Under the pieces are notes generated by a model. It worked only from the letters and a program-made list of their open reading frames with translations. It made no database searches and was not told the origin of the DNA. The translations under genes were made by a program, and so were the position numbers. Of a DNA stretch of 38,674 nucleotides, positions 12,985 through 34,430 are shown piece after piece. The stretch spans positions 1 through 38,674 of the forward strand of contig DQPL01000003.1 in NCBI GenBank assembly GCA_015664885.1. The letters are read 5' to 3'. Every line of letters starts with the position of its first letter. Positions within the stretch are counted from its first letter, which is position 1. Source of the DNA: Gemmatimonadota bacterium. GTDB taxonomy: Bacteria > Gemmatimonadota > Gemmatimonadetes > Longimicrobiales > Gaopeijiaceae.

Positions 12985-14910
12985 TCAGCGTGCGATACGG
13001 CCCATTGTGCTGAGACTTTTGCTCGAGTCGCGGGAGGCGTCCGTCAGCCCACCAAACTTTCGCACCTCGAGCAGCAGATTTTGGAGATCTGCCGGCGACA
13101 CCCCAGAGATCCTACCTGCCTGAGCGAGCGTTTCTGGTCGAATCCTTGTGAGTTTCTCCCTGGACTCATAGGAAAGAGTCTTGAAATCCATGTACGGGAG
13201 GTCGTCGCCCAACCGGAAATCCGCTTGTCTTCGTAGTTTTTCGGCGCGCTCCCTCTCTCTCGCCACGTATCCTTCATACTTGAGCTCGACTTCGACCGCA
13301 TCGAGTACCGAATCAGGGAGTTGATCCACAGACTCCCCGGCACCATCGAGTAGGCTGACGGCGGAGACTCGTGGTCGTTTTAGCAACTCGACGGCGCGGG
13401 TCGGCTCAGAAACGGGACTGGAGTCAGCCGACTCCAAGATGGGGCCGGCGACCTCGGGCGGGATAACCGTCTGCCGGAACCAGGTCAGTACTCGATCCTC
13501 CTCCCGCAGGCGCGCTTCGAGGGACTTCTCCTGGGTTGCACTCAATAGCCCACGCTCACGAGCGAGGGGGCCGAGTCGGCGCGGTGCGTTGTCCTGCCGA
13601 AGCAAAAGGCGAAACTCGGCTCGTGAGGTGAACAGCCGATAGGGTTCGTCCACACCACGCGTCACTAGGTCGTCGATCAAGACCCCGATGTACGCCTGGT
13701 CTCGCTCCAGAACGAAGGGCGGCTCCTCCCTCACATGCAGTGCCGCGTTGATGCCCGCGACGATTCCCTGCCCCGCGGCCTCTTCGTAGCCGGTCGTGCC
13801 ATTGATTTGGCCGGCGAAGTACAAACCCGGAACTGCCTTCAGCGCCAGCGTGTGCCGAAGCTGGTGCGGAGGGAAATAGTCGTACTCGATCGCGTAGCCC
13901 GCCTTCGTCATCACCACATCTTCGAGCCCGGGAATGGTACGCATGAACTCGAGTTGCACCTCCACCGGCAATGAGGTCGACAAACCGTTCACGTAAAACT
14001 CGGTGGTATGCAGACCCTCCGGTTCCAGGAAGACCTGATGCCGAGGGGCGTTAGGGAAGCGCACGATCTTGTCTTCGATCGAGGGACAGTAGCGAGGCCC
14101 GCGGCCGGCGATTTCGCCCCCGTATAGCGCACTCTTCTGCAGATTGTCCGAGACGACCTTCTTGAGCCCCTCTGACGCCCATGTGATCCAACACGGTCGT
14201 TGCTCGGGAATGTCCTCCGTAGTGTAGGCGGAGAACCGATAGGATTCGGCATCTCCGTCCTGCCTCTCGGTGCGTTGGAAGTCGATGGTGCGCCCGTCGA
14301 TTCGTGGCGGCGTCCCCGTCTTGAAGCGGGCGACCTCCAACCCCAGAGCTTCGAGCCCCTCGGCCAACGCGATTGACGGCGCCTCCCCCGCACGCCCGGC
14401 ACCCACACCGGCCTCAGCACCGACATGGATTTTCCCTCGCAGGAACGTTCCGGTCGTCACAACCACACAAGGCGCCTCGAAGGTGATGCCTCCCCGCGTG
14501 CGCAGGCCCCGGACCTCGTGACCCTCCATGAGAAGGCCGCTCACCAGATCCTGATAGAGATCCAGGAACTCCAACCCGTCGAGCACCCGACGTACGCCGA
14601 TCGGATAAAGCGTCCGGTCGCATTGCGCCCTCGGACCCCACACCGCCCTCCCCTTGGAACGGTTCAGCATGCGAAACTGAATCCGGGACGCGTCGGTGGC
14701 TCGGCCCATGACGCCCCCGAGCGCATCGACCTCCTTCGCTACCACCCCCTTGGCCACACCACCGATCGCGGGATTACAGCTCATCTGCCCGATTCGCGCC
14801 AGATCCGGGGTGATCAGCAGCGTGCGCACGCCTGCGCGTGCGGCGGCGGCCGCCGCCTCGGTGCCGGCGTGCCCACCACCCACCACAATTACATCGTACG
14901 ATGTATGCAT
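12985..14910 (-). CDS. mnmG: tRNA uridine-5-carboxymethylaminomethyl modification enzyme MnmG (GidA)
   Basis: 641 residues, family length. FAD-binding [17 protein letters not shown] begins at residue ~11. The signature [13 protein letters not shown] (~44) and [16 protein letters not shown] (~365) are present. The C-terminal helical domain that meets MnmE is intact, with the [17 protein letters not shown] segment and [17 protein letters not shown]. With MnmE it installs cmnm5/nm5 at wobble U34 of certain tRNAs. It is third in mnmE-acyP-mnmG, 31 bp after acylphosphatase. rsmG, which usually follows it, is absent. Confidence 0.98.
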
Positions 14911-14941
14911 TCGATCTCACGCACCTTATACGCAGCTGTCG

Positions 14942-15244
14942 TCATTGGTGTAGGATCTCAAAGCCCACTCGAGATATCTGCCCTTCTGGTTCGATGTGCT
15001 CGACTGACGTTACCCTCGCAAATTGAGGGCCCTCGGCGATCAGGCGCTCAAACTCCGCGAGCACCTCGGTGCGCCCGGCGGCCTGAATCTCTACACACCC
15101 GTTCGTCAGATTCCGCACGTGCCCGCCAAGGCGCAAACGGCCTGCGACCGCTCGTGTCCACCATCGAAACCCCACGCCCTGCACGCGTCCGTGGACTCGG
15201 TATCCGCGCAGCGCAAAAAGGCCATCAGTGGGTGACTCACTCAT
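14942..15244 (-). CDS. acylphosphatase
   Basis: 100 residues from ATG 15244, which overlaps the mnmE stop as ATGA. The family signature GRVQGVGFRWWTRAVAGRL holds the catalytic arginine (R of GFRW) and GHVRNLTNGCVEIQAAG holds the catalytic asparagine. It hydrolyses carboxyl-phosphate bonds in small acyl phosphates in the cytoplasm. Placement between mnmE and mnmG is uncommon and may only reflect operon packing. Confidence 0.95.
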   Translation of the reverse strand: MSESPTDGLFALRGYRVHGRVQGVGFRWWTRAVAGRLRLGGHVRNLTNGCVEIQAAGRTEVLAEFERLIAEGPQFARVTSVEHIEPEGQISRVGFEILHQ

Positions 15245-16611
15245 TTCCCTACACAAAACTCTCGGAATACCACGTCGAGCACGTCCTCCACAGAGATCAC
15301 GCCGAGCACTTCCTCGAGAGCAGTCTCCGCGGGACGAAGATGGGTCGACGCTACCTCCGGGGGGAGCCCCGCCTCGAGTGCGTCCCGAAAGAGTTCGACC
15401 TCGGCGCGCGCGGTCGCGAGCGCCAGCGCGTGGCGCCGCCTCGTGATGACGGGAACCTCCGCCCCGACGTGCAGCAAGGCCGAGTACGCTAGTTCGGGAA
15501 GAGCACCGCGAAGTTCGTCGAGCCCGTCTCCGGACTGAACAGAGACGTCGATCACCGCTGCGACGTGCGCGGGCGACCGTCGCTCAGGGGAGTCATTTTG
15601 CAGATCTGATTTTGTTCGCAGCATAAGAACCGGTGCCTCGAGCTGCTCGAGAAAGCGTCGATCCGAGTCAGAGATCTCTTCGTCTGCTGGCACGCACAGC
15701 AAGACGACATCGGCGTCCCTGAGGTAACGTTTCGCGACATCGATTCCGAGCCGCTCGACCTGACGATCGGTCTCGCGCAAACCAGCAGTGTCTACCAAAC
15801 GGAACGGAAAGCCTCCGACTTGCACGAACGCCTCCAACGCATCCCGGGTTGTGCCAGGCTCTTCAGTCACGATTGCCCGTTCCTGTCCGAGCAACGCATT
15901 GTACAGCGACGACTTGCCCGCGTTCGGCCGGCCAGCCAGCACGGCCAACGCTCCTTCGCGCAACAGCTCCCCCTCAGGCGCTGTCGCGAGCAAGCGATCG
16001 ATACGTTGAGCTAGGTTCGTAGCTTCCGAGACGATCTCGTCCAACGGTACCGGCGCGTCGTCTTCTTCCGGAAAGTCGATGTGGTGCGCCAGCAACGCTT
16101 CGAGACGAACGAGGCCCTCCCGCAACCCCGAGATGCGCCCCGAGAGTCCCTGCTCCAACTGCCCGAGCGCAGCAAGGTGGAGCGCGCGACTGCGCGCTTC
16201 GATCAGATCCGAGACCGCCTCGGCTTGCACTAGGTCCAGCTTCCCTCTGAGGTACGCCCGTCTAGTGAACTCCCCGGGCTCCGCCTCACGAGCGCCCGCG
16301 CGTAGGCACGCATCCAGCGCCAGCGGTGGAACCAGCCACCCGCCATGACACGAGAACTCCACGACGTCCTCACCCGTGTAGCTCTCAGGAGCAGCGAAGT
16401 AGGTCACAATCGCCCGGTCTATCACCGAGCCATCGTCGGGGTCCCGGATCTCCGCAAGCGTCGCGTAGCGCGGATCGGGCATCCTCTCGAGCCCCGGCAG
16501 CAGTCGCAACGCGACGGAAGTGGCTTCAGGTCCCGATACGCGGACTACCGCGATCGCACCGAGGCCGGGCGCGGTCGACACGGCAGCGATTGTGTCGACG
16601 TCCAAAGTCAT
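15241..16611 (-). CDS. mnmE: tRNA modification GTPase MnmE (TrmE)
   Basis: 456 residues, family length. The N-terminal tetrahydrofolate-binding domain begins TIAAVSTAPGLGAIAVVRVSG. The inserted G domain has G1 GRPNAGKSS (~228), G2 GTTRD, G3 DTAG and G4 TKSD. The C-terminus ends FREFCVGK, the C(I/V)GK motif needed for activity. It works with MnmG on wobble uridines. The gene begins 14 bp after the inverted-repeat element. Confidence 0.98.
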   Translation of the reverse strand: MTLDVDTIAAVSTAPGLGAIAVVRVSGPEATSVALRLLPGLERMPDPRYATLAEIRDPDDGSVIDRAIVTYFAAPESYTGEDVVEFSCHGGWLVPPLALDACLRAGAREAEPGEFTRRAYLRGKLDLVQAEAVSDLIEARSRALHLAALGQLEQGLSGRISGLREGLVRLEALLAHHIDFPEEDDAPVPLDEIVSEATNLAQRIDRLLATAPEGELLREGALAVLAGRPNAGKSSLYNALLGQERAIVTEEPGTTRDALEAFVQVGGFPFRLVDTAGLRETDRQVERLGIDVAKRYLRDADVVLLCVPADEEISDSDRRFLEQLEAPVLMLRTKSDLQNDSPERRSPAHVAAVIDVSVQSGDGLDELRGALPELAYSALLHVGAEVPVITRRRHALALATARAEVELFRDALEAGLPPEVASTHLRPAETALEEVLGVISVEDVLDVVFREFCVGK

Positions 16612-16624
16612 CCGATTTCTGAGC

Positions 16625-16930
16625 CTGGGAGCCCGTAGTAGAAGTACAGTGGGCCGCGTTGCGGTGCCACGGCCCTAGATCCTAGGCGGGGCGACGACGC
16701 CATAGCCGTCGCTACGGCTAGCAGCCCCAACGACGGAGATGGGGCCGTGCCACCGCAACCCACACACCAGTAATGTATTGCCACACATGGCGCAGGGCGC
16801 AGGGGGGTCGCGGCTCAACAGATCGTTTCTCCTCCTCGCCGTAGAACAACTACGACTCGTCGTCGTGCCTACTTTTGAACTCGTGAGACCCCTGCGCGCG
16901 GCCCACTGTACTTCTACCACAGACTCCTAG
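16625..16930. repeat. 306-bp inverted-repeat element filling the yidC-mnmE gap
   Basis: A perfect 21-bp inverted repeat (16638-16658 and 16897-16917, starting GTAGAAGTACAGTGGG) extends outward with mismatches to 16625 and 16930, about 34 bp per arm. Inside are two further hairpin arms: 16659-16676 with 16741-16758 (17 of 18 match, TTGCGGTG...CACGGCCC) with a nested small hairpin (TAGCCGT-cgct-ACGGCTA), and 16797-16809 with 16885-16896 (GCGCAGGGG...). The whole folds as a three-way junction. No open frame is convincing and no clear target duplication is seen. It may be a MITE-like insertion or a structured intercistronic RNA. Confidence 0.75.
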
Positions 16931-16937
16931 AGAGAGC

Positions 16938-18689
16938 TTACTCGCTCTTCATCTTCAGAGGAGGCTTTCCCTTCATCTTCAGCCGCTCGCGAGCGATCCA
17001 AACCTGCTGCGGAATCGTCGCGATGTTCGCGACCAAATAGTAGAGGTTCAGGCCGCTCGCGAGTCTGAAGAAGATGAACACCATCATGATCGGCATGAGG
17101 TACATCATCATCTTCATCTGTGGGTTGGGCGTGTCCAGCGACTTGTGGCTCACGTACATCATTAGGAACATCGACAGCCCCAAGAACACCGGCAGCAGAT
17201 AGATCGGGTCCGGCGCGGACAGGTCGGGCAGCCAGAGGAACTGCTCGCCCCTCAGCTCGATCGTGTTCTGGAAGACAAAGAACAGCGCAATGAGCACGGG
17301 CCAGGGAAGCAGCATCGGCAGGCAGCCCGCCAACGGATTGAAGCCGTGCTCCTTGTAGAGCCGCATCATTTCCTTCTGCAGCTTCTCCGGCTGGTCCTTG
17401 TACTTCGTCTGGATCTCCTTGAGCAGCGGCTGCACAGCCATGTTGCGCAGCTGCGCCTTCATCGCCTTGTGGTTCAAGGGAAAGAGCACGACGCGCATCA
17501 TGACGCCGAAGATGACCAGCACCCAGCCGTAACCGACGGACAGCTTCGTGTGCAAGTACACAAAAATGGTCATGATCACGGACACGATCGGACGCAAGAT
17601 CGGCTGGAAGAACTTCCACCCGTACGGGTTCACCTCCTCCATGCCCTGCCCCAGGGAACTGAGCAGCGCATACTCCTGCGGGCCCAAGAAGACCCGATAA
17701 GCGAAGCTTCCGTCGTTCGAAAGCGGTTGGGCCGAGGCGACACGCACGACTCCCTCCGTCTCGGTCGGCTGCACGATCACCCCACCCAAGTAGCGCGCTT
17801 CCGTCGCCGCCTCGTCGCTCTCGCCCGCGAGCAACGCCATGACGAAGAACTTGTTCTTGAATGCCGCCCACAGCAGCGGCCCCTCCACAATGGTCGGCTC
17901 GGCCTTACCCAGGAGCGTCGACTGGATGCCCTCCTGCACATTGTTGGTCACATAAGCCATAGTGCGGGACTCGCCCACCGAGTCGGCCTCTGAGTAAGCG
18001 AGCCCCTCACCCAGGTCGGTCAGCAAGAGTGGGCGCTCGAGCCCAGACTCCACAGTCCCCCTTACGCCAACCGTGTATTCGTCCGGATTGAACTCGTACT
18101 CGAGCACAAACACAAAGGGGCTGGTCGGATGCTCGTAGACGAATCGCAGCGTACGAGCGCCCGAACGGCTGCTCATTGTCAGGCCGTTCGACGGTTCCAC
18201 CGTGAACGGCACCCCGCTCAAGTCCACCGTGTCTTCGCCCACGAGCAGCTTTTGGCCCATATACCCGCCTGACCCCTCCTTCACGAGGTCAACGAGGCCC
18301 TCTCGATTGAGTGCCTCGAACTCCGACATCTGGGCAGACATCAGGCGCGCGCCGTAGTTCGAAAACTCGTAACGATAGAGGGGCCCCTCGACCGTGATCC
18401 TATACTCGCGCAACGCGGCCGGGTCGGTCGGGAGCTCGACGGGCGCGGCGGCGCCCACGCTGGGAAGCCTTGGCGCGCTCGAAGTCGGGATCTCGGGCAC
18501 GAGCGCCCCGGCAGCGCCGTCCCCCGTGCCCGTCGGATCGGCGCTCGACGGTCCGCCGACCGCGGGCCCGGCGCCCAGACTGTCGAGGGGCAGCTCTTCG
18601 GGCGGAATCGGGGGGAACAGAAGGTTGGTGCCGACGAGCACACCCAACATCAAGAATATGGCCAGCAAGAAACGGACTTCGGTCTTCAT
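16938..18689 (-). CDS. yidC: membrane protein insertase YidC
   Basis: 583 residues. An N-terminal anchor ([21 protein letters not shown]) is followed by a Pro/Gly/Ala-rich linker and a periplasmic beta-sandwich (~90-360), the Gram-negative-type architecture. The conserved five-helix core runs from ~370, with [20 protein letters not shown] (groove arginine), the cytoplasmic loop with [21 protein letters not shown], and [20 protein letters not shown]. The basic tail ends [13 protein letters not shown]. It inserts membrane proteins with or without Sec. ATG overlaps the yidD stop by ATGA. Confidence 0.98.
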
Positions 18690-18922
18690 CGAGCTCGTCT
18701 ATCGATACGAGGAGGTACAGGATCCATCCCGAAGCCACCCCACGGATGACAGCGGCCCACACGCTTCACGGCCAGCAGGCCACCGCGGGCCACACCGTGT
18801 GTGTCGATCGCGTCCATCGCGTACGTGGAGCACGTCGGCGTGAAACGGCACGCCGCCGGGGTCCACGGTGAGATCGCCATTTGATAGACGCGGATCACAC
18901 CGATTAGGATTCGTCTGAGCAC
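18686..18922 (-). CDS. yidD: membrane protein insertion efficiency factor YidD
   Basis: 78 residues from GTG 18922, with GGAGG five bases upstream inside rnpA. The family signature is complete: [30 protein letters not shown] with conserved CRFxPTCS cysteines and a later [15 protein letters not shown]. It is a small membrane-associated protein between rnpA and yidC, its usual place. It overlaps rnpA by 19 nt and yidC by ATGA. Confidence 0.96.
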
Positions 18923-19452
18923 AGCGCCTCCACCGCCTCGTGGACATCCAACCGCAGTTGCCCGAACCCCGCCTCGTACGCCGCGCGGCGCGCTCGAATC
19001 AACAGGTCCCCACCGTTTCCACTCGCATCCAAGCTGGGGAGGACTTCTCTTCTACCGATCTCACGTAGCCTTCTCTTCAATCTGTTTCGCTCCACGATCT
19101 CCCGTCCGTGCTTTGGCACGATCAGCCCGAGGCGCGAACGCGAAGCGGGGGAAGGCGTGAAGAAGACGTCTAGGTTCGTCGTCCTCTTCCGCTTCCCCCG
19201 CTCCAAAAGCGCCCGGATTTCTGTGCTGTGTCGGATGCGCGCGCTCCGCGGCAGGCGCTCTTTGCACTCCGGCGAAACCGCGGCTACTTCCGGCCGATCG
19301 TGACCACCAGACGGGTCCGACCCCGCCTCCGACGACGGTTCAATACCTTGCGACCGCCCTTCGTCTTCATGCGCTCCCGGAACCCATGCTTGTTCACCCG
19401 CTTGCGGTTCCGGGGTCTGTAAGTCGGCATCATTGTGGTTAATCCAGCCCAT
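18904..19452 (-). CDS. rnpA: ribonuclease P protein component, frame extending through rpmH
   Basis: The conserved RnpA core reads [24 protein letters not shown] and [27 protein letters not shown], the basic RNA-binding RNR-type motif, and ends LCSDES. It binds RNase P RNA for tRNA 5' maturation. The core begins near 19254, which would give the normal ~116 residues, but no ATG, GTG or TTG lies in frame between ATG 19452 and a TTG inside the core. The frame is fully open from ATG 19452 across all of rpmH in another frame (182 residues). So either rnpA starts upstream of rpmH, as known in Thermus, or it starts at CTG 19254 or another unusual codon. The N-terminal extension is acidic and low-complexity. 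Confidence 0.85.
19284..19430 (-). CDS. rpmH: 50S ribosomal protein L34, nested in the rnpA frame
   Basis: 48 residues, [17 protein letters not shown]...[19 protein letters not shown]...LVVTIGRK, a clear L34 with the usual basic composition and the FRxRMxTxxGRxVL block. Two tandem ATG codons (19433 and 19430) precede it; the second is chosen because L34 usually begins MPTY or MKRT. No strong ribosome site is seen. The gene lies wholly inside the open frame that leads into rnpA and is first in rpmH-rnpA-yidD-yidC. Confidence 0.96.
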
Positions 19453-19738
19453 CGTTTTCGTTCGTTTGGAAAGAAGCTTGGAAAGATAGTCGAGCGTGTC
19501 TGAACACGTCAACGGCCCCCCCACAGCAGGGGGTGAAACTGCCCAAAACGCCCGTCCTGATTGCCGGTTTGACTTTCCAACACATGCTCGGTAGCTTCGG
19601 CGCCCCTGCCACGGGGAACCCGCTCAGAAGCACCACTTTTCAGCGCCTGCAAGCTCCACACATGCCCGTAGCTGTCACCCGCCCCTCAGCACATTCGGCC
19701 ACCGCTACCGATGCGGGACACAGCATACAAGAGATGCA
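19453..19738. other. divergent promoter region between rpmH/rnpA and dnaA
   Basis: About 290 bp without a gene. It must hold promoters for rpmH-rnpA (minus) and dnaA (plus). No good DnaA boxes were found by eye; CTCCACACA near 19654 is only partial. No strong sigma-70 pair stands out. Confidence 0.5.
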
Positions 19739-21121
19739 ATGGAGCTGACTGCGGCTGAGCTCTGGGCGCGGATCCAAGAGAGCGCTCGCGCATCCATTCC
19801 GGAGCACGGCTATCTCACATGGGTCGCTGGCGCCAAAGCCGTCGCGCTGACATCCGACGAACTCCAGGTAGAGGTACCCTCGCGCTTTCACGTCGAGTGG
19901 CTCGAGGACAAGTTCGGGCCGGTGCTCGCCGGAGCGGCGGAGCGCATTCTTGGGCGTCCCCTGAAGATTACGGCCTCATGCAACGCGGAGTTGTCCGCGA
20001 TTCCGGTGCCTTCTATCGAGTTGCGCCCGCCTTCGCCGACGGCGGCCGGGATCTCTCCCGTTGCTTCCCCCGCCCCGGCCGCGCCCCGGCCGCTGCTGAA
20101 CGAGCGTTACACGTTCGAGCGCTTCGTCGTCGGGGTGAACAACCAACTGGCCGCCGCTGCGTCACGGGCGGTCGCCGACAACCCCGCCAAGATGTACAAC
20201 CCGCTTTTCCTCTATGGCGGCGTAGGCCTGGGCAAGACACATCTGATGCACGCGATCGGGCACGAAGTCTTGGCAAACGACCCCACGCGCAGGATCTGCT
20301 ATTTGTCGTCGGAGCAGTTCACAAATGAGTTGGTCACTTCGATCCAGAAGGGGGCGATGGCCGACTTCCGTAGACGGTACCGGGAGATGGATTTGCTCTT
20401 GGTCGACGATGTGCAATTCCTGGCGGGAAAAGAACGTACCCAGGAGGAGTTCTTCCACACGTTCAACGCGCTCTACGACGCTCAGCGCCAGATCATCGTG
20501 ACGAGTGATCGGCCCCCGAAGGACCTTTCGGGTCTCGAGAATCGTCTGGTGTCCCGCTTCGAGTGGGGACTAGTGGTCGATGTGAGGCCGCCCGACTACG
20601 AGACGCGCATGGCCATCCTTCGCAAGAAAGCGGCCGACGACGGGCTGTCCATCGGCGACGAGGTCATCGACTTGATCGCCCACTCTTGTACGTCCTCGGT
20701 GCGTGAACTGGAAGGTGCCGTGATCAAGTTGCTTGCGTTCTCCTCGCTCACCCATCAGGAGATCACGCCGGGGTTGGCACGCACGGCGCTTCATGGCGTC
20801 CTGGGTCGCCACCGCGACGAGGGACCCGTTCTGTCACCAGAGCGCATTCGCGAGACAGTCGCTCGACGCTGGCGGGTCCGCGCGGAGGCGCTCGCCTCCA
20901 AGCGCCGCACCAAGGACCTGACCGTGCCGCGACAGGTCGCGATGTATCTAATCAAAGAGACTCTCGACACGTCACTCGTGCGGATCGGAGAGCTCTTCGG
21001 AGGCCGCGATCATTCGACCGTGATTCACTCGATCCGGAAAGTCGAAGACCAGATGGAGCGAGACCCCGTCTTTCGGGAGCAGGTCGACGCCGCGCGCGCG
21101 GAATGCGAGCACACGGAGTAG
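19739..21121 (+). CDS. dnaA: chromosomal replication initiator DnaA
   Basis: 460 residues. Domain I opens ELTAAELWARIQESARASI. A Pro/Ala linker (~92-118) is domain II. The AAA+ domain starts NERYTFERFVVGVNNQLAAA, with Walker A YGGVGLGKTH (~159), Walker B LLLVDDVQFL (~217) and the box VII arginine region. Domain IV ends with the DnaA signature FGGRDHSTVIHSIRKVE (~420), which reads DnaA boxes. It is followed by oriC and dnaN. Confidence 0.98.
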   Translation: MELTAAELWARIQESARASIPEHGYLTWVAGAKAVALTSDELQVEVPSRFHVEWLEDKFGPVLAGAAERILGRPLKITASCNAELSAIPVPSIELRPPSPTAAGISPVASPAPAAPRPLLNERYTFERFVVGVNNQLAAAASRAVADNPAKMYNPLFLYGGVGLGKTHLMHAIGHEVLANDPTRRICYLSSEQFTNELVTSIQKGAMADFRRRYREMDLLLVDDVQFLAGKERTQEEFFHTFNALYDAQRQIIVTSDRPPKDLSGLENRLVSRFEWGLVVDVRPPDYETRMAILRKKAADDGLSIGDEVIDLIAHSCTSSVRELEGAVIKLLAFSSLTHQEITPGLARTALHGVLGRHRDEGPVLSPERIRETVARRWRVRAEALASKRRTKDLTVPRQVAMYLIKETLDTSLVRIGELFGGRDHSTVIHSIRKVEDQMERDPVFREQVDAARAECEHTE

Positions 21122-21151
21122 AAGGCTGTTGGGAAAATCCGCGCAGAGCCG

Positions 21152-21389
21152 TGTGGATACAACGGCGAAAACCACGGGTGTTTCCCACATCGCTTCCGGA
21201 GCCACGGCGCGGCTCGTGGCAAACCGTGGAGAAATCAACAGAGATTCGACACCGCACGTGCGGCTTCGAAGTCGTTGCCAGCAAACGATAAACAGGCTGT
21301 GCACACAGTCCCAATCCACACATCCACAGGTCCTACTACTACTATGTTTTTATGATAAGAAGAGAGATAGTATCTAGCTGCGTGGAAAA
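21152..21389 (+). other. replication origin oriC (dnaA-dnaN intergenic)
   Basis: The gap holds several DnaA-box-like 9-mers: TGTGGATAC (21152-21160), TTTCCCACA (21181-21189), CAATCCACA (21312-21320), ACATCCACA (21320-21328) and CGTGGAAAA (21381-21389), each one or two bases from consensus. Directly after the box ending 21328 comes a short GC step (GGTCC), a DnaA-trio run TACTACTACTAT (21334-21345) and an AT-rich stretch to ~21377 (TTTTTATGATAAGAAG). Box, GC step, trios and AT-rich unwinding zone in this order is the basal bacterial origin architecture described in Bacillus. The duplex probably opens at 21334-21377. Confidence 0.85.
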
Positions 21390-21425
21390 CGGCATGATCC
21401 TAGGCATACGAGGAGCTGCGGCTCG

Positions 21426-22532
21426 ATGAATTTCACGATCACCCGGCAGAACCTTCACAACGGCCTGGCAGCCGTCTCGGCAAGCATCCCGTCCAAGACG
21501 ACGCTCCCCGTTCTTTCAAACATCCTCTTCGAAGCAAAAGAAGACGCCGTGTGGATGAGCGGGACAGACTTGGATGTTGCGGTGCGTGTGAAGGTGCCGG
21601 CGGACGTCAAAGAACTAGGTCGCCTGACCGCGCCCGGGAAGAAGCTTCAGGAGATCACACGGGAGCTCCCGGAACAACCGGTCGAGGTCGCGACACGCGG
21701 TGAGCAGATCGAACTGAAGTGCGGAAGGAGCAACTTCAAGTTGAACGGATTGCCGGCCGATGAGTTTCCAAGCCTTGCGGAGGTCGACTTCAGCGAAGGG
21801 TGGACCGTCACGGGCAAGGACGTGAACGGACTCATCCACCACACCACGTTTGCAGTGTCCACAGAGGAGAGCCGCCCTATCCTGAACGGTGTGCTGTGGG
21901 AGTTGCGCGAAGGATCCATGCGTATGGTGGCGACCAACGGTCATCGCCTCGCGCGCATGGGCGTGCCAGCGGAATCTGGTGGTGCCCCGTCAGCGGATTT
22001 CATCGTGCCGCCAGGCGCGCTTCAACATGTTCAACGCCTCTTCAAGGACGACGATACCATTGAGGTTGCACGTAGCGGGAATCACCTCGGATTCCGAGCC
22101 GATTCCACCGAGGTATACACTCGGCTCATCGAAGGCACGTATCCGAACTATGACCAGGTGATCCCACGGGACAACGACAAGGTCGCGACCATCGACAAGA
22201 AGGCGTTGGAGTCAGCGGTTCGCCGCATGGCGGTGGTAGCGTCTGACCAGACGCACCGGATCCGTTTGAAATTCGAACCCGGCCGAGTGCACCTGAACGT
22301 GCTCACGCCCGATCTCGGTGAGGGGCACGACGAATTAGAGATCGGCTACGAGGGCGAGGAATTGGAGATCGGCTTCAACGCGAATTACCTACTTGAGGTT
22401 CTCCGCTATATGCCGACGGACGAAGTCGACGTGGCGTTCAAGGCGCCCGAACGCGCAGTGACCATCGAGCCATCGGGCGACAACGACATCGACTACCTCT
22501 GTTTGGTCATGCCTCTGCGTCTATTGGACTGA
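21426..22532 (+). CDS. dnaN: DNA polymerase III beta sliding clamp
   Basis: 368 residues, family length, three clamp domains. The start MNFTITRQNLHNGLAAVSASIPSK and TLPVLSNILFEA are typical, as are the GVLWELREGSMRMVATNGHRLA block and the ending DIDYLCLVMPLRL. AGGAG lies 10 bases before ATG. It forms the ring that holds polymerase on DNA. recF and gyrB do not follow; pyrE comes in from the other strand 37 bp later. Confidence 0.98.
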   Translation: MNFTITRQNLHNGLAAVSASIPSKTTLPVLSNILFEAKEDAVWMSGTDLDVAVRVKVPADVKELGRLTAPGKKLQEITRELPEQPVEVATRGEQIELKCGRSNFKLNGLPADEFPSLAEVDFSEGWTVTGKDVNGLIHHTTFAVSTEESRPILNGVLWELREGSMRMVATNGHRLARMGVPAESGGAPSADFIVPPGALQHVQRLFKDDDTIEVARSGNHLGFRADSTEVYTRLIEGTYPNYDQVIPRDNDKVATIDKKALESAVRRMAVVASDQTHRIRLKFEPGRVHLNVLTPDLGEGHDELEIGYEGEELEIGFNANYLLEVLRYMPTDEVDVAFKAPERAVTIEPSGDNDIDYLCLVMPLRLLD

Positions 22533-28376: not shown

Positions 28377-29105
28377 TCAGCTGGCTTCGGCAACCCGTCC
28401 GAAGCGGCGGTTGCGGGAAGAGTACTCGGAAATGGCCTGCGCGAGCGCGTCGCCCTGGAAGTCGGGCCACATGCGGTCGGTGAATACGAGCTCTGCGTAG
28501 GCACACTCCCATAGCAGGAAATCGCTCAGGCGCTTCTCCCCGCCCGTTCTGATGAGCAGGTCCACGTCAGGCGCGGGCTCCTCGGTGTGCATCGCCTGCC
28601 CGAGCAATAGGGAGAGCGAAGCCCGATCGAGGTCCGTGCGGGCGGCCGCGGCGCGGACGGCCGAGACGAGCAGGTCGCGGCTCGAGTAGTCCACAGCCAG
28701 TCGCAGCGAGAGTCGGCGGCATATCTGCGTCGCTTCTTCCGACTCCTCAATGAGGCGTACGAGGTCCGGCGCGAGGCGGTCGCGTCGGCCGATGACCTGT
28801 AGGCGCACGCCCTCTGCCTTGAGCTCGGCGATCTCACTCTTCAAGTATCGGCGGAACAACTTCATGAGTAGTTGGACTTCGCGCTGGGGCCGCTGCCAGT
28901 TGTCGGATGAAAACGCATACAGGGTCAGCACGTCGATGCCGAGGTCGGGCGATGCTTCGACCACCCGGCGGACTGCTTTCGCGCCCTCGCGATGACCCGA
29001 CTCGCGCCGGCGCCCACGCTCTCGGGCCCAGCGCCCGTTCCCGTCCATGATGATCGCTACGTGCAGACCATCCTGCTCGTCCGCACGAAGAGCACTCTGT
29101 GTCAT
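28377..29105 (-). CDS. uppS: isoprenyl (undecaprenyl) diphosphate synthase
   Basis: 242 residues from ATG 29105, GGAGG upstream. [20 protein letters not shown] (~15-34) holds the catalytic aspartate and phosphate-binding [15 protein letters not shown] (~67) and the C-terminal [27 protein letters not shown] are conserved. It makes the C55 carrier for peptidoglycan and other wall polymers by cis addition of isopentenyl units. It is last in a minus-strand run after a regulator/membrane pair; cdsA and dxr, its frequent neighbours, are absent. Confidence 0.96.
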
Positions 29106-29150: not shown

Positions 29151-29540
29151 TCAGGCATCGCGCGTCGCACTGATGATGGCTTCCATGTGATCGAGGTAGA
29201 GCTGAAGCTCGCGGCAACCCAACTTCGTCAGCTCGTACTCGGTCCTTGGCATTCTGCTCTCGAACGACTTTTGACATCTCACGTACCCGGCGTCCTCGAG
29301 CCGACGCGCGTGCGCGCTCAGGTTGCCGTCGGTGGCGCCGAGCAGCTCCTTGAGATCGGTGAACGTGAGCGAGCCGTTTACGGCGAGCGCGCTCACGATT
29401 CCGAGCCGGACTCGCTCGTGAATCAGCCGATCGAGCTCCAAGGGATCGGCGGCCTGTGAGTGCTGGCCACGGACTCCTGCCAAGGCAGTCGGCCGAGCGT
29501 CTCCTCGGGCTTTGGGCAAAGCGCCCTGTCTAGCCGCCAT
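29151..29540 (-). CDS. winged-helix transcriptional regulator
   Basis: 129 residues. After a basic N-terminus, ELDRLIHERVRLGIVSALAV, then SLTFTDLKELLGATDGNLSA (turn and recognition helix), then RRLEDAGYVRCQKSFESRMPRTEYELTKLG (wing) give the MarR/ArsR-like single-domain 'transcriptional regulator' fold often paired with a membrane protein. ATG overlaps the end of the membrane-protein gene by 11 nt, so the two are coupled. It may bind the dyad upstream of its partner. Confidence 0.88.
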   Translation of the reverse strand: MAARQGALPKARGDARPTALAGVRGQHSQAADPLELDRLIHERVRLGIVSALAVNGSLTFTDLKELLGATDGNLSAHARRLEDAGYVRCQKSFESRMPRTEYELTKLGCRELQLYLDHMEAIISATRDA

Positions 29541-30147
29541 GTCTCCTCCAGATCAGGATACCGAATAAGATGTGTAGGCCTCCGAAGCCGGCGGCCATGA
29601 ATGCGTTGCCCCACGTCGCCGGAGCGAAGAAGGCGATGGTTCCCAGACCCATGAACGCGGCACCCATGAGTGGGACGGGACGAACGGAGTAGGAGCCGCC
29701 GGTGACTATGCCGGTGCCGTAGAGCAGTAGCCAGGCGCCCGGCAGCTGGTCGATCAATTCGGCCCGCACGAACACCACGGTGAGCACCGCGCCGACCACC
29801 AGAGGCGGGATGAGGTTCCAGGCGAATTTGCGGCCCGGGCCGGTGAGAAGCCCCTCACCCGCCGCCGCCGACTTTCGAATCATCGCGAGCGTCTGCGCCG
29901 ACAGAGCCGCAGCAGCCGCTGCCAGCCAAGTGCCCACCCACATCGAGGGTCCGGACGCCCCGGATGCTGCAAGCGCGGCCGCGATCGCGATCAGCCCCAT
30001 GAGCACGCCGCCGATCCCCGAAACGTGGGTAAAGGACGCAGAGCGCTGCATCGTTTCGCGGATGTAGCGCAGATTGTCCATCGCCCGATCGTGTAGTGCC
30101 ACAGGTCCCCGATCGGGATTGTTGAATTTCTTGGCTGGCAGATTCAT
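29530..30147 (-). CDS. multi-pass membrane protein paired with regulator
   Basis: 205 residues from ATG 30147. Five or six hydrophobic segments are visible: ASFTHVSGIGGVLMGLIAIAA, MWVGTWLAAAAAALSAQTLA, NLIPPLVVGAVLTVVFV, GAWLLLYGTGIVTGG, GAAFMGLGTIAFFAP and AFMAAGFGGLHILFGILIW. No catalytic motif is seen. Such membrane proteins with a coupled winged-helix gene recur in Gemmatimonadota. Function unknown; sensing of a signal for the regulator is inference. Confidence 0.85.
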   Translation of the reverse strand: MNLPAKKFNNPDRGPVALHDRAMDNLRYIRETMQRSASFTHVSGIGGVLMGLIAIAAALAASGASGPSMWVGTWLAAAAAALSAQTLAMIRKSAAAGEGLLTGPGRKFAWNLIPPLVVGAVLTVVFVRAELIDQLPGAWLLLYGTGIVTGGSYSVRPVPLMGAAFMGLGTIAFFAPATWGNAFMAAGFGGLHILFGILIWRRHGG

Positions 30148-30183
30148 AAATGCAGCATGGGGCTGACGCCGAGCACGAACAAG

Positions 30184-30202
30184 TACTTTGCTCCACAAAG
30201 TA
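30184..30202. promoter_or_regulatory. dyad upstream of membrane protein/regulator pair
   Basis: TACTTTG-ctcca-CAAAGTA is a perfect 7+5+7 inverted repeat 37 bases upstream of the membrane-protein start. Its position suits an operator for autoregulation by the downstream winged-helix protein. Binding is inference. Confidence 0.45.
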
Positions 30203-30236: not shown

Positions 30237-31172
30237 CTACTTCGGCGCGATCACCTTCAGGGCAGCGGGTAGAATGCGTGCTTCGACCGTGTGGCCGGCA
30301 GAGCGGCGCACGTCGCCGTCCACCTCGAAGCGCGGCGGAGCCGGGAACTCCATTCGGAAGCCGCTGTCGGCGATCACCTCCACGCGATCCGAGGTCACGT
30401 GCCGACCGCGCTCAGCCAGATTGAACAGCCTGAGACGGGACAGTGGAGATGCGTCGCTAATCTGACACGCGTGCAACTTCCCGTCCTGGACGGTTGCATC
30501 CGGAGCGATGGGAAAGCCCCCCCCAAAGAAGGGCGCGTTCGAAACAGTGACCATAAGGTACCCCCCGCTACGCTCTTCACCGCCCTCGCTGCTGAGTCGC
30601 AGCTCGACGCCCGGGAAACGAAAGAGTTGCTGCAGTGCGGTGATCTTGTAGAGCAGTTCACCCTTGAGAAACCGTGCGCCGGCGGCAGCATCGATCACCG
30701 CGATATCAAAGCCGAACCCGATCAGGTTCAGGAAATAGCGCGTCTGCCAGCGTTCGGGAGTGTGCTCCGAGGCGCTCTCGGTTTCGACCCGCCCCACGTC
30801 CACGATCCTGATGTTGCCGGATGTCAGGACCTTGACTGCCGCCCCCACGTCAGATGGATCAAAGCCCAAGCTCCGGCCGAAGTCGTTGCCGGTACCGTTG
30901 GGCAGGATGCCGAGCGTGATGTCGTCGCGTCCGCTCGCGAGTAGCCGGTCCGCCACATTGCTCCAGGTGCCGTCGCCTCCAACGGCCACGACCACGTCGT
31001 AGCCCTCGGCGGTAGCCTTGTCGGCGAGCGCGATCTCTCCCCCGGGCTCGGCCGACTCGGCGAAGGTGACGTCGTCCAGTTGATCCGAGAGCAACTGGCG
31101 GTAGACCTCGATGCGCCGCTTACCGCGTCCGCGGCCCGAGGCCGGATTGAAGATGACGAAGTGGCGCGGCAC
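30237..31172 (-). CDS. diacylglycerol/lipid kinase family protein (YegS/DgkB type)
   Basis: 311 residues from GTG 31172, five bases after the upstream stop. FVIFNPASGRGRGKRR (~6-21), the VVAVGGDGTWSNVADRLL nucleotide motif (~75) and LGILPNGTGNDFGRSLG (~100) are the DAGK catalytic-domain signatures. The C-terminal beta region includes FFGGGFPIAPDATVQDGKL. It phosphorylates diacylglycerol or a related lipid to the phosphate. Product could feed the neighbouring CDP-diacylglycerol genes, though they are on the other strand. Confidence 0.93.
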   Translation of the reverse strand: MPRHFVIFNPASGRGRGKRRIEVYRQLLSDQLDDVTFAESAEPGGEIALADKATAEGYDVVVAVGGDGTWSNVADRLLASGRDDITLGILPNGTGNDFGRSLGFDPSDVGAAVKVLTSGNIRIVDVGRVETESASEHTPERWQTRYFLNLIGFGFDIAVIDAAAGARFLKGELLYKITALQQLFRFPGVELRLSSEGGEERSGGYLMVTVSNAPFFGGGFPIAPDATVQDGKLHACQISDASPLSRLRLFNLAERGRHVTSDRVEVIADSGFRMEFPAPPRFEVDGDVRRSAGHTVEARILPAALKVIAPK

Positions 31173-31177
31173 CGTGC

Positions 31178-31861
31178 TCAGAGTTCGAGTAGGGGCTCGA
31201 AGGTCTGCTGGCCCGCCTGGTACCACTGCTCACGGAAGGGATACGTGTTCACGTCTTCGATCGTGAGCCCTTCGGTCATCGCATGCTCGTAAAGCGTGAG
31301 CGAACCGTTCTCCTCCTCGTGCTCGGAGTGTGGGGCCTCCATGTAGATGTTCGCCTTGAACTTGGCGTCGGCCCCAGCTTCCACTGTGAACGCGTTGTAG
31401 AGGTTCTTGGTGGGAGCGTACTCGTGCTTGGTGACGGTGAAGTCGAGTACCGGCGTGTCGCCATCCCGGACCGTGACCTCCATCGCATCGCCAGACTCGG
31501 TCATCGAGATGTCGAGGTCCGACATGTAGTGCGGCAGATGCCAGCGCTCGATCGCGTGCAGGCGCGATGCCTCGGACGACGTGCCGACGCAGAACGGGAA
31601 GAACGCAGCCTTGGGCAGCGGTTTGCCGGGCTCCACCATGGGCGGAACGATCACCGCGAGCACGACCTCGAAGTAATGTCCAACCTCGCTCTCCGTGAAC
31701 TCGAAGCAGGTGAGTGCAAGGATACTCCGTTCGTGCTGCATCTCCAGAGGCTCCAGGTGGGACGGCAGTAGCTTGCGCGCGTCCGATGTGGGCATCTCGA
31801 AGAAGGCTCCCACGCAGTTTCGGAAGCCGTAGTACGTGTAATCCATGTCGCTCATGTGCAT
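31178..31861 (-). CDS. acetoacetate decarboxylase-like protein
   Basis: 227 residues from ATG 31861 (ATG 31855 possible). Layout fits the ADC superfamily: GFRNCVGAFFEMPTSDARKLLPSHLEPLE, then HYFEVVLAVIVPP, then FFPFCVGTSSEASRL. In true ADC a Schiff-base lysine sits in a GFPKK-like motif; the matching place here reads ERWHLPHYMSDLD with no lysine pair. So the fold is likely but decarboxylase activity is doubtful. It is co-transcribed with the lipid kinase. Confidence 0.6.
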   Translation of the reverse strand: MHMSDMDYTYYGFRNCVGAFFEMPTSDARKLLPSHLEPLEMQHERSILALTCFEFTESEVGHYFEVVLAVIVPPMVEPGKPLPKAAFFPFCVGTSSEASRLHAIERWHLPHYMSDLDISMTESGDAMEVTVRDGDTPVLDFTVTKHEYAPTKNLYNAFTVEAGADAKFKANIYMEAPHSEHEEENGSLTLYEHAMTEGLTIEDVNTYPFREQWYQAGQQTFEPLLEL

Positions 31862-31918: not shown

Positions 31919-32728
31919 GTGCCAGTCGTCATTCGTCCTGCGCTCTCAGAGGCGTCTCGTTTGAAGCTCCGCGGCTACCTCGCCATCACCGCCGTTTGCG
32001 CGGTCATCCTGCTCTGCGATCCGATACAGCGTTTCTTGATCGTTCCTTCAGGCTGGCTCTTTCCTTCCCGTCGCGACCGCATCCTCGTCGCATGGGCCCA
32101 ATGGCTGTGCTGGGTGGTAACGGCACCTTTGTCATGGATCGGCGGAGCCTCTCTCCCCGAGCCGTTGAAAGTGCCCTCCGGGCCAGGGATTCTGATCTTA
32201 ATGAACCACCAGTCGCTCATCGACATCCCACTGATCGTGAGGTGCATCGACAACGGGTACCCCCGTATCGTGACGCGCCGACGCTACGCGCGTTGGATCC
32301 CGCTAATCTCACACGTGCTCAAGCTATATCAATTCCCGCTGGTAGACCCCGCGGCAACGGCGGGTCAGACTCGCAGGATGTTGAGAAAACTCCAAGAGTC
32401 GGCTCGAACGTCCGAGGTGCCGTTCATGATCTTCCCCGAAGGGCACCGCACCAGGGACGGCGAGATCGGGCCGTTCATGACAACCGGCCTCAGGCTCATC
32501 CTGAGGGCTCGGCCCTGGCGGGTCTATGCCTTTGTTGTTGACGGTTATTCGGGTTACCCCAAGTTGTCCGACTTCCTCGCAGGCATGGCCAAACTCGAGG
32601 GGCGCATCGAGTTGGTGGGAGAGTTCGACTGGCCGGATCCGAAGGGCGACCACAATGCGTTCGCCACCGAAATCCGGCAGCGGATGATCGATCGTTTGGC
32701 TGAGATACGGGGGGCCTCGGCCGCGTGA
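31919..32728 (+). CDS. 1-acyl-sn-glycerol-3-phosphate acyltransferase (PlsC type)
   Basis: 269 residues from GTG 31919; an in-frame GTG at 31856 would overlap the divergent gene. An N-terminal hydrophobic segment (GYLAITAVCAVILLCDPIQRFLIV) anchors it. The acyltransferase motifs are LMNHQSLIDIPLI (HxxxxD) and FPEGHRTRDG (block III). It would acylate lysophosphatidic acid to phosphatidic acid at the membrane. It overlaps the next gene by GTGA and is first of a three-gene unit. Confidence 0.9.
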   Translation: MPVVIRPALSEASRLKLRGYLAITAVCAVILLCDPIQRFLIVPSGWLFPSRRDRILVAWAQWLCWVVTAPLSWIGGASLPEPLKVPSGPGILILMNHQSLIDIPLIVRCIDNGYPRIVTRRRYARWIPLISHVLKLYQFPLVDPAATAGQTRRMLRKLQESARTSEVPFMIFPEGHRTRDGEIGPFMTTGLRLILRARPWRVYAFVVDGYSGYPKLSDFLAGMAKLEGRIELVGEFDWPDPKGDHNAFATEIRQRMIDRLAEIRGASAA

Positions 32729-33699
32729 AGGACGCGTCAATCTCCTTGGCCAGCGAACTGGCCGGCGCGCTCGTCGGAATCGGCGCCGGCTCCATCAGGT
32801 CGATCCTGCTGTACGGATCCCACATGCTGGGCGCCAACCCAGACCGACACAGCGCCGTCGATTTCGTGGTGATCGTCGACGAATACAGAGCCTTCTACGC
32901 TGCGCTCAACGAAGCCGGCGAACTACACCGGCCGACCTGGCTGCTGTCCTTCATGGCCGGATTCCTGCCGCCGAACGCCATTGCCTTCGCCCCGGACGAC
33001 GGGCGCAACGGAATCGCGAAATGCATCATCGTCAGCCGCTTCCATCTGGAGCGGGCGTTGGGGCCGGACCCCCCGGACCACTTTCTGCTTGGCCGACTGG
33101 TTCAGAAGGTAGGCCCGGTGTACAGCGTGACCGTAGAGGACGCCGAGTGGGTCGAGCAGCAACTGGCCTCGGCCCGTCACGGGGTCCTGGAATGGATGAA
33201 GCCGTACCTGGACGGCCCCATCGACGCGGAGCGACTGGGCCGACGCATGCTGGAGGTGTGCTATGGCGGCGAGATTCGGCCCGAGTCGAGGCAGCGCGCG
33301 AACCGGATTTTCGAGAGCCAGGCCGGGCACTTTCGAGAGCACTTCGGCCTCGTGTTGGCGCGCGGCGCGGAGCGGGGCGTGCTCGTCGAGAGTATCCATC
33401 ACGAGGCAGACCGCACGCGGGCGCTGGCCACCTACGAGCTGGCGCGTCCGGCGTCGGCAGCGTCGCGCAGGAAGTGGCGTCGTCACTTTCGGAAATCGAA
33501 GGCCCGGGCAACCGCCAGGTGGTTCAAGCACATGGCGACCTTCGCCAACTGGCTGCCATACGTCGTGCGCAAGGTGGAACGGCATCGCGGTGAACGAATC
33601 GAGCTCACCGCGCTGGAAAGACGGCTTCCACTCATCTTCTTGTGGCCGCGGGCCATCAAGGTGCTGTTGACGCGACCGCCCAAAGAGCTTTCGCGATGA
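32725..33699 (+). CDS. Tam41-like CDP-diacylglycerol synthase (putative phosphatidate cytidylyltransferase)
   Basis: 324 residues, GTG 32725 overlapping the plsC stop. No membrane helices are seen. By pattern it follows mitochondrial Tam41/Mmp37: SILLYGSHMLGAN (~27; GYGSG in Tam41), AVDFVVIVDEYRAFYAALNE (~44; nucleotidyltransferase aspartate and FHxxN), IAKCIIVSRFHLERAL (~97; KYGVxxxxxLxxDL), FLLGRLVQKVGPV (~120; AGRLQKPV) and EVCYGGEIRPES (~167; SYxGDIR). Tam41 makes CDP-diacylglycerol from phosphatidic acid and CTP on the mitochondrial inner membrane. Position between PlsC and a CDP-alcohol phosphatidyltransferase supports that same step. This is recognition by motif order, not a search result. 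Confidence 0.75.
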   Translation: MKDASISLASELAGALVGIGAGSIRSILLYGSHMLGANPDRHSAVDFVVIVDEYRAFYAALNEAGELHRPTWLLSFMAGFLPPNAIAFAPDDGRNGIAKCIIVSRFHLERALGPDPPDHFLLGRLVQKVGPVYSVTVEDAEWVEQQLASARHGVLEWMKPYLDGPIDAERLGRRMLEVCYGGEIRPESRQRANRIFESQAGHFREHFGLVLARGAERGVLVESIHHEADRTRALATYELARPASAASRRKWRRHFRKSKARATARWFKHMATFANWLPYVVRKVERHRGERIELTALERRLPLIFLWPRAIKVLLTRPPKELSR

Positions 33700-34430
33700 C
33701 CCCGGACCTCACGGTCCTGCTCGCCGTGCTCGCGTTGGCGCTCGCCACGATTCTGGTGTACGCCGTGAGTGCCGCGCGAACTGCTGCGGACCCGCACGAA
33801 GTGGTCGATCGCGGCAGCTTCGTACTCGGCGGTTTCATACGGAGCTGGTTCTACTGGTTCATTGGACCGCTGGTGAGGCTCTCCCTCGCTCTGAAGATCT
33901 CGCCCACGTTCTTCAACTTGCTCGGGGTCGCGCTCGGGATCGCGGCGGGCGTCGCCTTTGCGACGGGTCACATAACGCTCGGCGGTTGGGGCGTGTTGCT
34001 GGGTGGGGCGGCGGATGTGTTCGACGGACGCATCGCACGCGCGCGCGGACTGGCGAACCAGCGTGGAGCGTTCCTCGATTCCACGCTCGATCGCTTCGCG
34101 GAAGTCGGCGCCTTCGTCGGATTGGCCGTGCTCTTCCGGGAGTCGGCCCTGGCGCTGACCTTAGTTGTGACCGCCCTAGGGGGGTCCTTGCTCGTCAGCT
34201 ACGCGCGTGCGCGGGGGGAGAGCGTAGGCGTGGTGTGCAAACAGGGCATCATGCAGCGAGCCGAACGCCTGCTGCTCATCGGATTCGCCGGACTCTTCGA
34301 CCCTGTTGCGACGCTCTGGGCCGGCTGGGACTCCGGTACGCTACTCATTGCGGTCCTGGGCCTCGTTGCCGTCGGCACCCTACTTACGGCGGTCTTCCGG
34401 ACCGTGTGGATCGCACGAAGATTGTCGTAA
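33696..34430 (+). CDS. CDP-alcohol phosphatidyltransferase family membrane protein
   Basis: 244 residues from ATG 33696, overlapping the Tam41-like stop as ATGA. The family signature DG(x)2AR(x)8G(x)3D(x)3D is intact as DGRIARARGLANQRGAFLDSTLD (~114-136). About six helices surround it, beginning TVLLAVLALALATILVYAV. It swaps an alcohol for CMP on CDP-diacylglycerol, giving a phospholipid such as PGP, PI-phosphate, PS or another. The head group cannot be told from the sequence. It ends the plsC-Tam41 unit. Confidence 0.93.
   Translation: MTPDLTVLLAVLALALATILVYAVSAARTAADPHEVVDRGSFVLGGFIRSWFYWFIGPLVRLSLALKISPTFFNLLGVALGIAAGVAFATGHITLGGWGVLLGGAADVFDGRIARARGLANQRGAFLDSTLDRFAEVGAFVGLAVLFRESALALTLVVTALGGSLLVSYARARGESVGVVCKQGIMQRAERLLLIGFAGLFDPVATLWAGWDSGTLLIAVLGLVAVGTLLTAVFRTVWIARRLS

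Follow-up and report, generated by a model that had tools for sequence, protein, structure and literature searches.

CDP-diacylglycerol synthase activity has already been described for a bacterial Tam41 (Kimura et al. 2022, as cited in the review PMC11646218), and the same review states that Tam41 retains only one of three acidic residues. In the PIP synthase MtPIPS, the residues Ser132, Arg155 and Arg195, along with Lys135, are reported as implicated in the binding of inositol-phosphate (PMC4634129). The gene cluster BT_1522-1526 of Bacteroides is described as yielding an inositol lipid in both glycero- and sphingolipid forms (PMC9246714), and a bacterial ceramide kinase, CpgB, is reported from Caulobacter (PMC10331486). 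Here, we describe a locus of Gemmatimonadota in which a Tam41-type enzyme probably feeds an inositol-phosphate transferase. Because the locus travels with a serine palmitoyltransferase-like (SPT-like) gene, its product may be an inositol sphingolipid made by an undescribed route.

The window, meaning the whole stretch of DNA that was analysed (38,674 nucleotides), belongs to a host assembly of 3.96 Mb that is 99% complete, and all named relatives of the locus come from Gemmatimonadota MAGs. The genes of the locus are the following:

28377-29105, minus strand: second cis-prenyltransferase (UppS-like); PF01255, 3.2e-77
30237-31226, minus strand: YegS/DgkB-type lipid kinase, 329 aa, start uncertain; PF00781, 8.6e-29, and PF19279, 1.4e-25
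31178-31861, minus strand: acetoacetate-decarboxylase-fold protein, divergent to the PlsC, Tam41-like and transferase genes; PF06314, 1.5e-9
31919-32728, plus strand: PlsC-like acyltransferase, 269 aa, a divergent second copy; PF01553, 1e-13
32725-33699, plus strand: predicted Tam41-like nucleotidyltransferase, 324 aa; AlphaFold2 fold, Z to 7ecd, profile match
33696-34430, plus strand: CDP-alcohol phosphatidyltransferase of PIP-synthase type, 244 aa; PF01066 CDP-OH_P_transf, 4.4e-11

The last three reading frames, all on the plus strand, overlap through GTGA and ATGA, just as the first-pass annotation had read them, and the lipid kinase that it placed next door was found with PF00781. The order PlsC, Tam41-like gene, transferase is repeated in most loci retrieved from other genomes, and since it recurs in this way, it is not due to chance. 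The layout that recurs widely has the kinase and the decarboxylase-fold gene on the left (minus strand), with PlsC, the Tam41-like gene and the transferase on the right (plus strand); the three-gene locus makes up one half of a larger unit, which that annotation had missed. Both the Tam41-like gene and the transferase gene are present in 66 of the 68 genomes having either, each standing singly in one genome, and the two exceptions (G111 and G084) both have the gene at a contig end or close to one. The locus PlsC is absent in a few genera (L095, L097 and L099, three genera), in which the Tam41-like gene and the transferase are kept.

A second UppS-like gene is found in the same place in loci L031-L033, L035-L042, L044 and L045, and the ordinary uppS is located beside cdsA on contig 42 (L046). 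Since the UppS-like gene keeps its place in most long loci, it may be used for the same lipid or for the glycosylation of that lipid. Between the prenyltransferase and the kinase (29151-30198, minus strand) lie a winged-helix protein (HTH_34), possibly a regulator of the lipid locus, and a small membrane protein. The decarboxylase-fold protein was modelled by AlphaFold2 with a pLDDT of 90 and matches acetoacetate decarboxylase (3bh2/3c8w) with Z 22. When the Schiff-base lysine of acetoacetate decarboxylase was sought among 17 decarboxylase-fold sequences, no invariant lysine was found, and a role as an actual decarboxylase was set aside for want of that conserved residue. Two paralogues of this protein occur, one at L114:8104-8766 (minus strand) by the SPT-like gene, and one at 31178-31861 (minus strand) by the kinase. 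Elsewhere in the window, mnmG, trmE, yidC, dnaA and dnaN apparently lie at 12985-22532, judging by eye from N-terminal sequences, which would place the lipid locus near the replication origin.

The 324-residue product of the middle gene gave nothing significant against Pfam (Polbeta, E 0.2), and a search of the window's own genome with PF09139 (Tam41_Mmp37) returned no match, this protein included. Across 395 genomes of the phylum, the PF09139 matches with E < 0.005 all fall on its orthologues, two of which pass the cut-off (L053 reaches 33.9 bits, the cut-off being 24). Single-sequence and first-profile searches of the PDB gave weak nucleotidyltransferase or chance matches only, and the Tam41 assignment emerged after divergent orthologues and structure prediction had been added. 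Profile-profile comparison of 17 family members with Tam41, represented by S. pombe 6ig2/6ig4, Firmicutes 7ecd and yeast, gave E 9.4e-6 over 183 columns. A second run of the comparison left out the yeast row, third in the alignment; with the two PDB Tam41 sequences only, the score was 43.2, the best of 200 column-shuffled controls being 24.1.

The AlphaFold2 model of the protein (pLDDT 86, pTM 0.85) presents the domain order of 7ecd and 6ig4, a nucleotidyltransferase fold followed by a winged helix, and then basic/aromatic C-terminal helices specific to the family. It matches the Firmicutes Tam41 7ecd with Z 21.2 (244 residues aligned, rmsd 3.1 Å) and 6ig4 with Z 16.4 (234 residues aligned), against Z 10.2 over 120 residues for the next-best family, the aminoglycoside nucleotidyltransferases. 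The latter, together with HalB and MntA, were rejected as the closest family, with about 80-125 residues aligned in most rows and Z <= 10.2. The first-pass annotation had claimed that the middle gene has the motif order of Tam41 and is of Tam41 type, not CdsA type; profile, fold and the orthologues above the PF09139 cut-off all bear this out, with the window protein itself falling outside PF09139. The Tam41/Mmp37 profile search that it advised was negative for the window protein and positive for divergent orthologues, and the modelling that it advised placed Tam41 at the top of the structural matches by a wide gap. Judged from sequence and modelled fold, the 324-residue protein is a member of a sister family of Tam41, which we call Tam41-like and keep outside PF09139 because the WH..N/NP..YS segment is missing.

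Seven residues, G31, S32, S43, A44, D46, K99 and R124, are constant in 22 orthologues. Aligned with an ordinary nucleotidyltransferase, Ala44 occupies the position of the first catalytic Asp and Asp46 that of the second. Tam41 is likewise without the first Asp (QIDL, MIDF), and Lys99 aligns with the lysine of its KYG. The active-site pattern of Tam41 is present, namely a GS motif, the first Asp lost, the second kept, and a Lys at the KYG position, and the Tam41 motif SYxGD(I/T)R aligns with CYxGEIR in the Tam41-like family. Loss of the conserved aspartates, which had been named beforehand as evidence against a Tam41 identity, is seen at the first position (Ala44) and not at the second (Asp46), and Tam41 itself has the same loss. 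The WH..N and NP..YS segment, which varies little among the Tam41 sequences used, has no counterpart in the 22 Tam41-like orthologues. Its absence, an identity to Tam41 of only about 11%, and an Asn in place of a cytosine-contacting Ser/Thr in the partner transferase would all suit a Tam41-fold nucleotidyltransferase with another donor or acceptor, e.g., another nucleotide or lipid phosphate. We consider this improbable, as the active-site pattern of the Tam41 type is kept and the pairing with a CDP-alcohol transferase is strict.

The Tam41-like protein is not a substitute for CdsA. Looking for CdsA elsewhere in the genome, as had been recommended, one ordinary copy was found (3.9e-53), and its usual frr-uppS-cdsA-dxr neighbourhood rules out such a replacement. 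An ordinary PlsC is also encoded (G000:C53, 119 bits) besides the divergent copy of the locus. With ordinary CdsA and PlsC both encoded, the locus represents a dedicated extra set; the earlier suggestion of a dedicated lipid unit is sustained by this CdsA and by the adjoining kinase.

The closest solved relatives of the transferase are the PIP synthases 6h53 and 5d92 (1.5e-12), and the CDP-alcohol signature DxxDGxxAR...GxxxDxxxD is kept as DVFDGRIARARG...GAFLDSTLD. Ser132, Arg155 and Arg195 are identical to MtPIPS, with Lys135 changed to Arg, in all nine of the locus members aligned. The protein scores 91 bits against the NCBIfam PIP synthase model NF045883 (cut-off 170 bits) and 119.6 bits against the archaetidylinositol phosphate synthase model (cut-off 180). 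It looks specific for inositol phosphate. In its SPTFFN stretch, an Asn that is invariant in locus members replaces the cytosine-contacting Ser/Thr (MtPIPS T34), and nucleotide recognition is perhaps altered.

Inositol-phosphate synthase is encoded in the genome (1.6e-92). Of the 146 genomes of the order, 131 have both a PIP-synthase-like gene and inositol-phosphate synthase, 7 have neither, and 8 are discordant. Genomes without the Tam41-like gene mostly carry another, more distant PIP-synthase-like paralogue, which sits directly beside inositol-phosphate synthase wherever coordinates permit comparison. The window's genome has no PIP-synthase-like paralogue adjoining inositol-phosphate synthase, and its other CDP-alcohol transferases are unlike PIP synthases; therefore, 33696-34430 is the genome's PIP-synthase-like gene. 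The same genome contains, at L050:541-2049 (plus strand), a 502-residue fusion resembling inositol-phosphate cytidylyltransferase/DIPP synthase, a possible second consumer of inositol phosphate.

Phosphorylation by the kinase, activation with CTP and transfer onto inositol phosphate make up a consistent series of steps for any lipid that has a free hydroxyl group, and the neighbouring genes point to two different lipids. The PlsC argues for phosphatidic acid, the substrate supposed in the first-pass annotation, from which the Tam41-like enzyme would make CDP-diacylglycerol and the transferase phosphatidylinositol phosphate, giving a glycerophospholipid pool apart from that of CdsA; the kinase would then recycle diacylglycerol, and the SPT-like gene would serve a separate lipid of the same lineages. 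The Tam41 enzymes studied so far do act on phosphatidic acid, PlsC adjoins in most loci, and the closest solved relative of the kinase is DgkB (2qv7, 5.9e-22). Additionally, 47 of the 67 carriers, the window's genome among them, have no further PIP-synthase-like gene, so the locus transferase could have taken over phosphatidylinositol synthesis. However, the other 20 carry a further PIP-synthase-like gene besides the locus transferase (the distant paralogue in 19, a second locus copy in G122), and in these a different lipid donor for the locus transferase makes sense. The glycerophospholipid route also offers no explanation for the SPT-like and decarboxylase-fold genes, though they are contiguous with the locus in deep branches, and it sits poorly with the three genera that lack the locus PlsC. 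We regard it as a credible but rather doubtful account.

The SPT-like gene, in contrast to PlsC, speaks for a backbone of sphingoid type, and so for a CDP-ceramide-like intermediate. In several deep-branching loci, the decarboxylase-fold gene and PlsC are separated by a gene of about 450 residues whose product is an alpha-oxoamine synthase, with serine palmitoyltransferase as its best solved match (1.9e-84). For the SPT-like proteins of L114 and L100, 3a2b gives 3.1e-81 against 7.5e-76 for the next class, and the protein has the PLP lysine motif TFSKS (GTFSKSLGG) and NPV..PAV. The NCBIfam SPT cut-off is 500-670 bits, and the protein reaches about 360 bits, tied with models of BioF and Kbl type, all of them sub-cut-off; the putative SPT identity is a best-match assignment, with the BioF/Kbl models scoring equally, and we write SPT-like throughout. 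The orthologue in the window's genome is found on contig 94, followed by the second decarboxylase-fold gene with overlapping ends.

Over the 146 genomes of the order, 60 possess both the SPT-like and the Tam41-like gene, 7 the Tam41-like gene only, 8 the SPT-like gene only and 71 neither (Fisher 5.6e-24, the genomes not being independent). By genus, all 19 genera with the Tam41-like gene have the SPT-like gene, against 3 of the other 40 (19/0/3/37). The 7 Tam41-like carriers in which no SPT orthologue was found are mostly incomplete assemblies, but G037 is 93% complete; G238, from another family, also has a Tam41-like gene and no SPT orthologue. As far as the data go, G037 and G238 are true exceptions to the linkage.

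We favour, tentatively and at a little under an even chance, the reading that the locus builds an inositol phospholipid on a sphingoid lipid that has been phosphorylated, with a CDP-ceramide-like intermediate, over plain CDP-diacylglycerol. From the computed gene order, folds, motifs and co-occurrence, we infer every reaction and both substrates. The lipid phosphate would most likely arise from an SPT-like enzyme supplying the long-chain base, an acylation step that the PlsC-like protein perhaps carries out, and the YegS-type kinase. The Tam41-type peripheral cytidylyltransferase would activate this lipid phosphate with CTP to a CDP-ceramide-like lipid, and the transferase would move the lipid phosphate from the CDP-lipid onto inositol phosphate, the product being ceramide (phospho)inositol. 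The Tam41-like enzyme and the transferase would form a dedicated branch apart from the CdsA branch. In a possible fuller version, the YegS-type kinase would phosphorylate ceramide itself, the Tam41-like enzyme would activate the product with CTP, and the PIP-synthase-like enzyme would then move it to inositol phosphate; we hold this complete chain to be somewhat less likely. Against the sphingoid reading, the PlsC and the kinase suit phosphatidic acid at least as well, and the SPT-like gene lies on another contig than the Tam41-like locus in the window's own genome. The term CDP-ceramide had no occurrence in the literature searched.

Compared with Tam41/Mmp37 (PF09139; 6ig2, 6ig4 and the bacterial 7ecd), the Tam41-like family shares the nucleotidyltransferase domain with winged helix, the one-Asp pattern, and an alignable KYG lysine, GR(L/F) arginine and YxG(D/E)xR motif. 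It differs in its 11-13% identity, the absent WH..N/NP..YS segment, its own C-terminal helices, and a gene placed in an operon with a presumed transferase. In genomes that contain CdsA, a conserved bacterial lipid operon encodes an enzyme of the Tam41 type, known above all from mitochondria, next to the enzyme that would consume its product; this is relevant to the diversity out of which mitochondrial Tam41 arose. Like the PIP synthases MtPgsA1 (6h53) and RsPIPS (5d92), the locus transferase has the CDP-alcohol signature, Ser132, Arg155 and Arg195; unlike them, it has an extra N-terminal segment, Arg for Lys135, Asn for the Ser/Thr of P(D/N)xx(S/T), and a score below the NCBIfam cut-off. The Bacteroides cluster BT_1522-1526 resembles this locus in its inositol lipid and in combining PIP synthase with inositol-phosphate synthase, whereas an AUR1-like enzyme there makes inositol phosphorylceramide, and the account of the cluster in PMC9246714 does not describe a Tam41-like protein. 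Caulobacter cpgABCD, as portrayed in PMC12275187 and PMC10331486, likewise joins a ceramide kinase to CTP-dependent activation in sphingolipid head-group synthesis; there, CpgD, from another nucleotidyltransferase family, activates the head group (CDP-glycerate) and not the lipid. If the backbone is sphingoid, the locus would represent a third logic of sphingolipid head-group attachment, a CDP-DAG-style route in Gemmatimonadota, beside transfer from a glycerophospholipid (AUR1/BT_1522) and the CTP-activated head group (CpgD).
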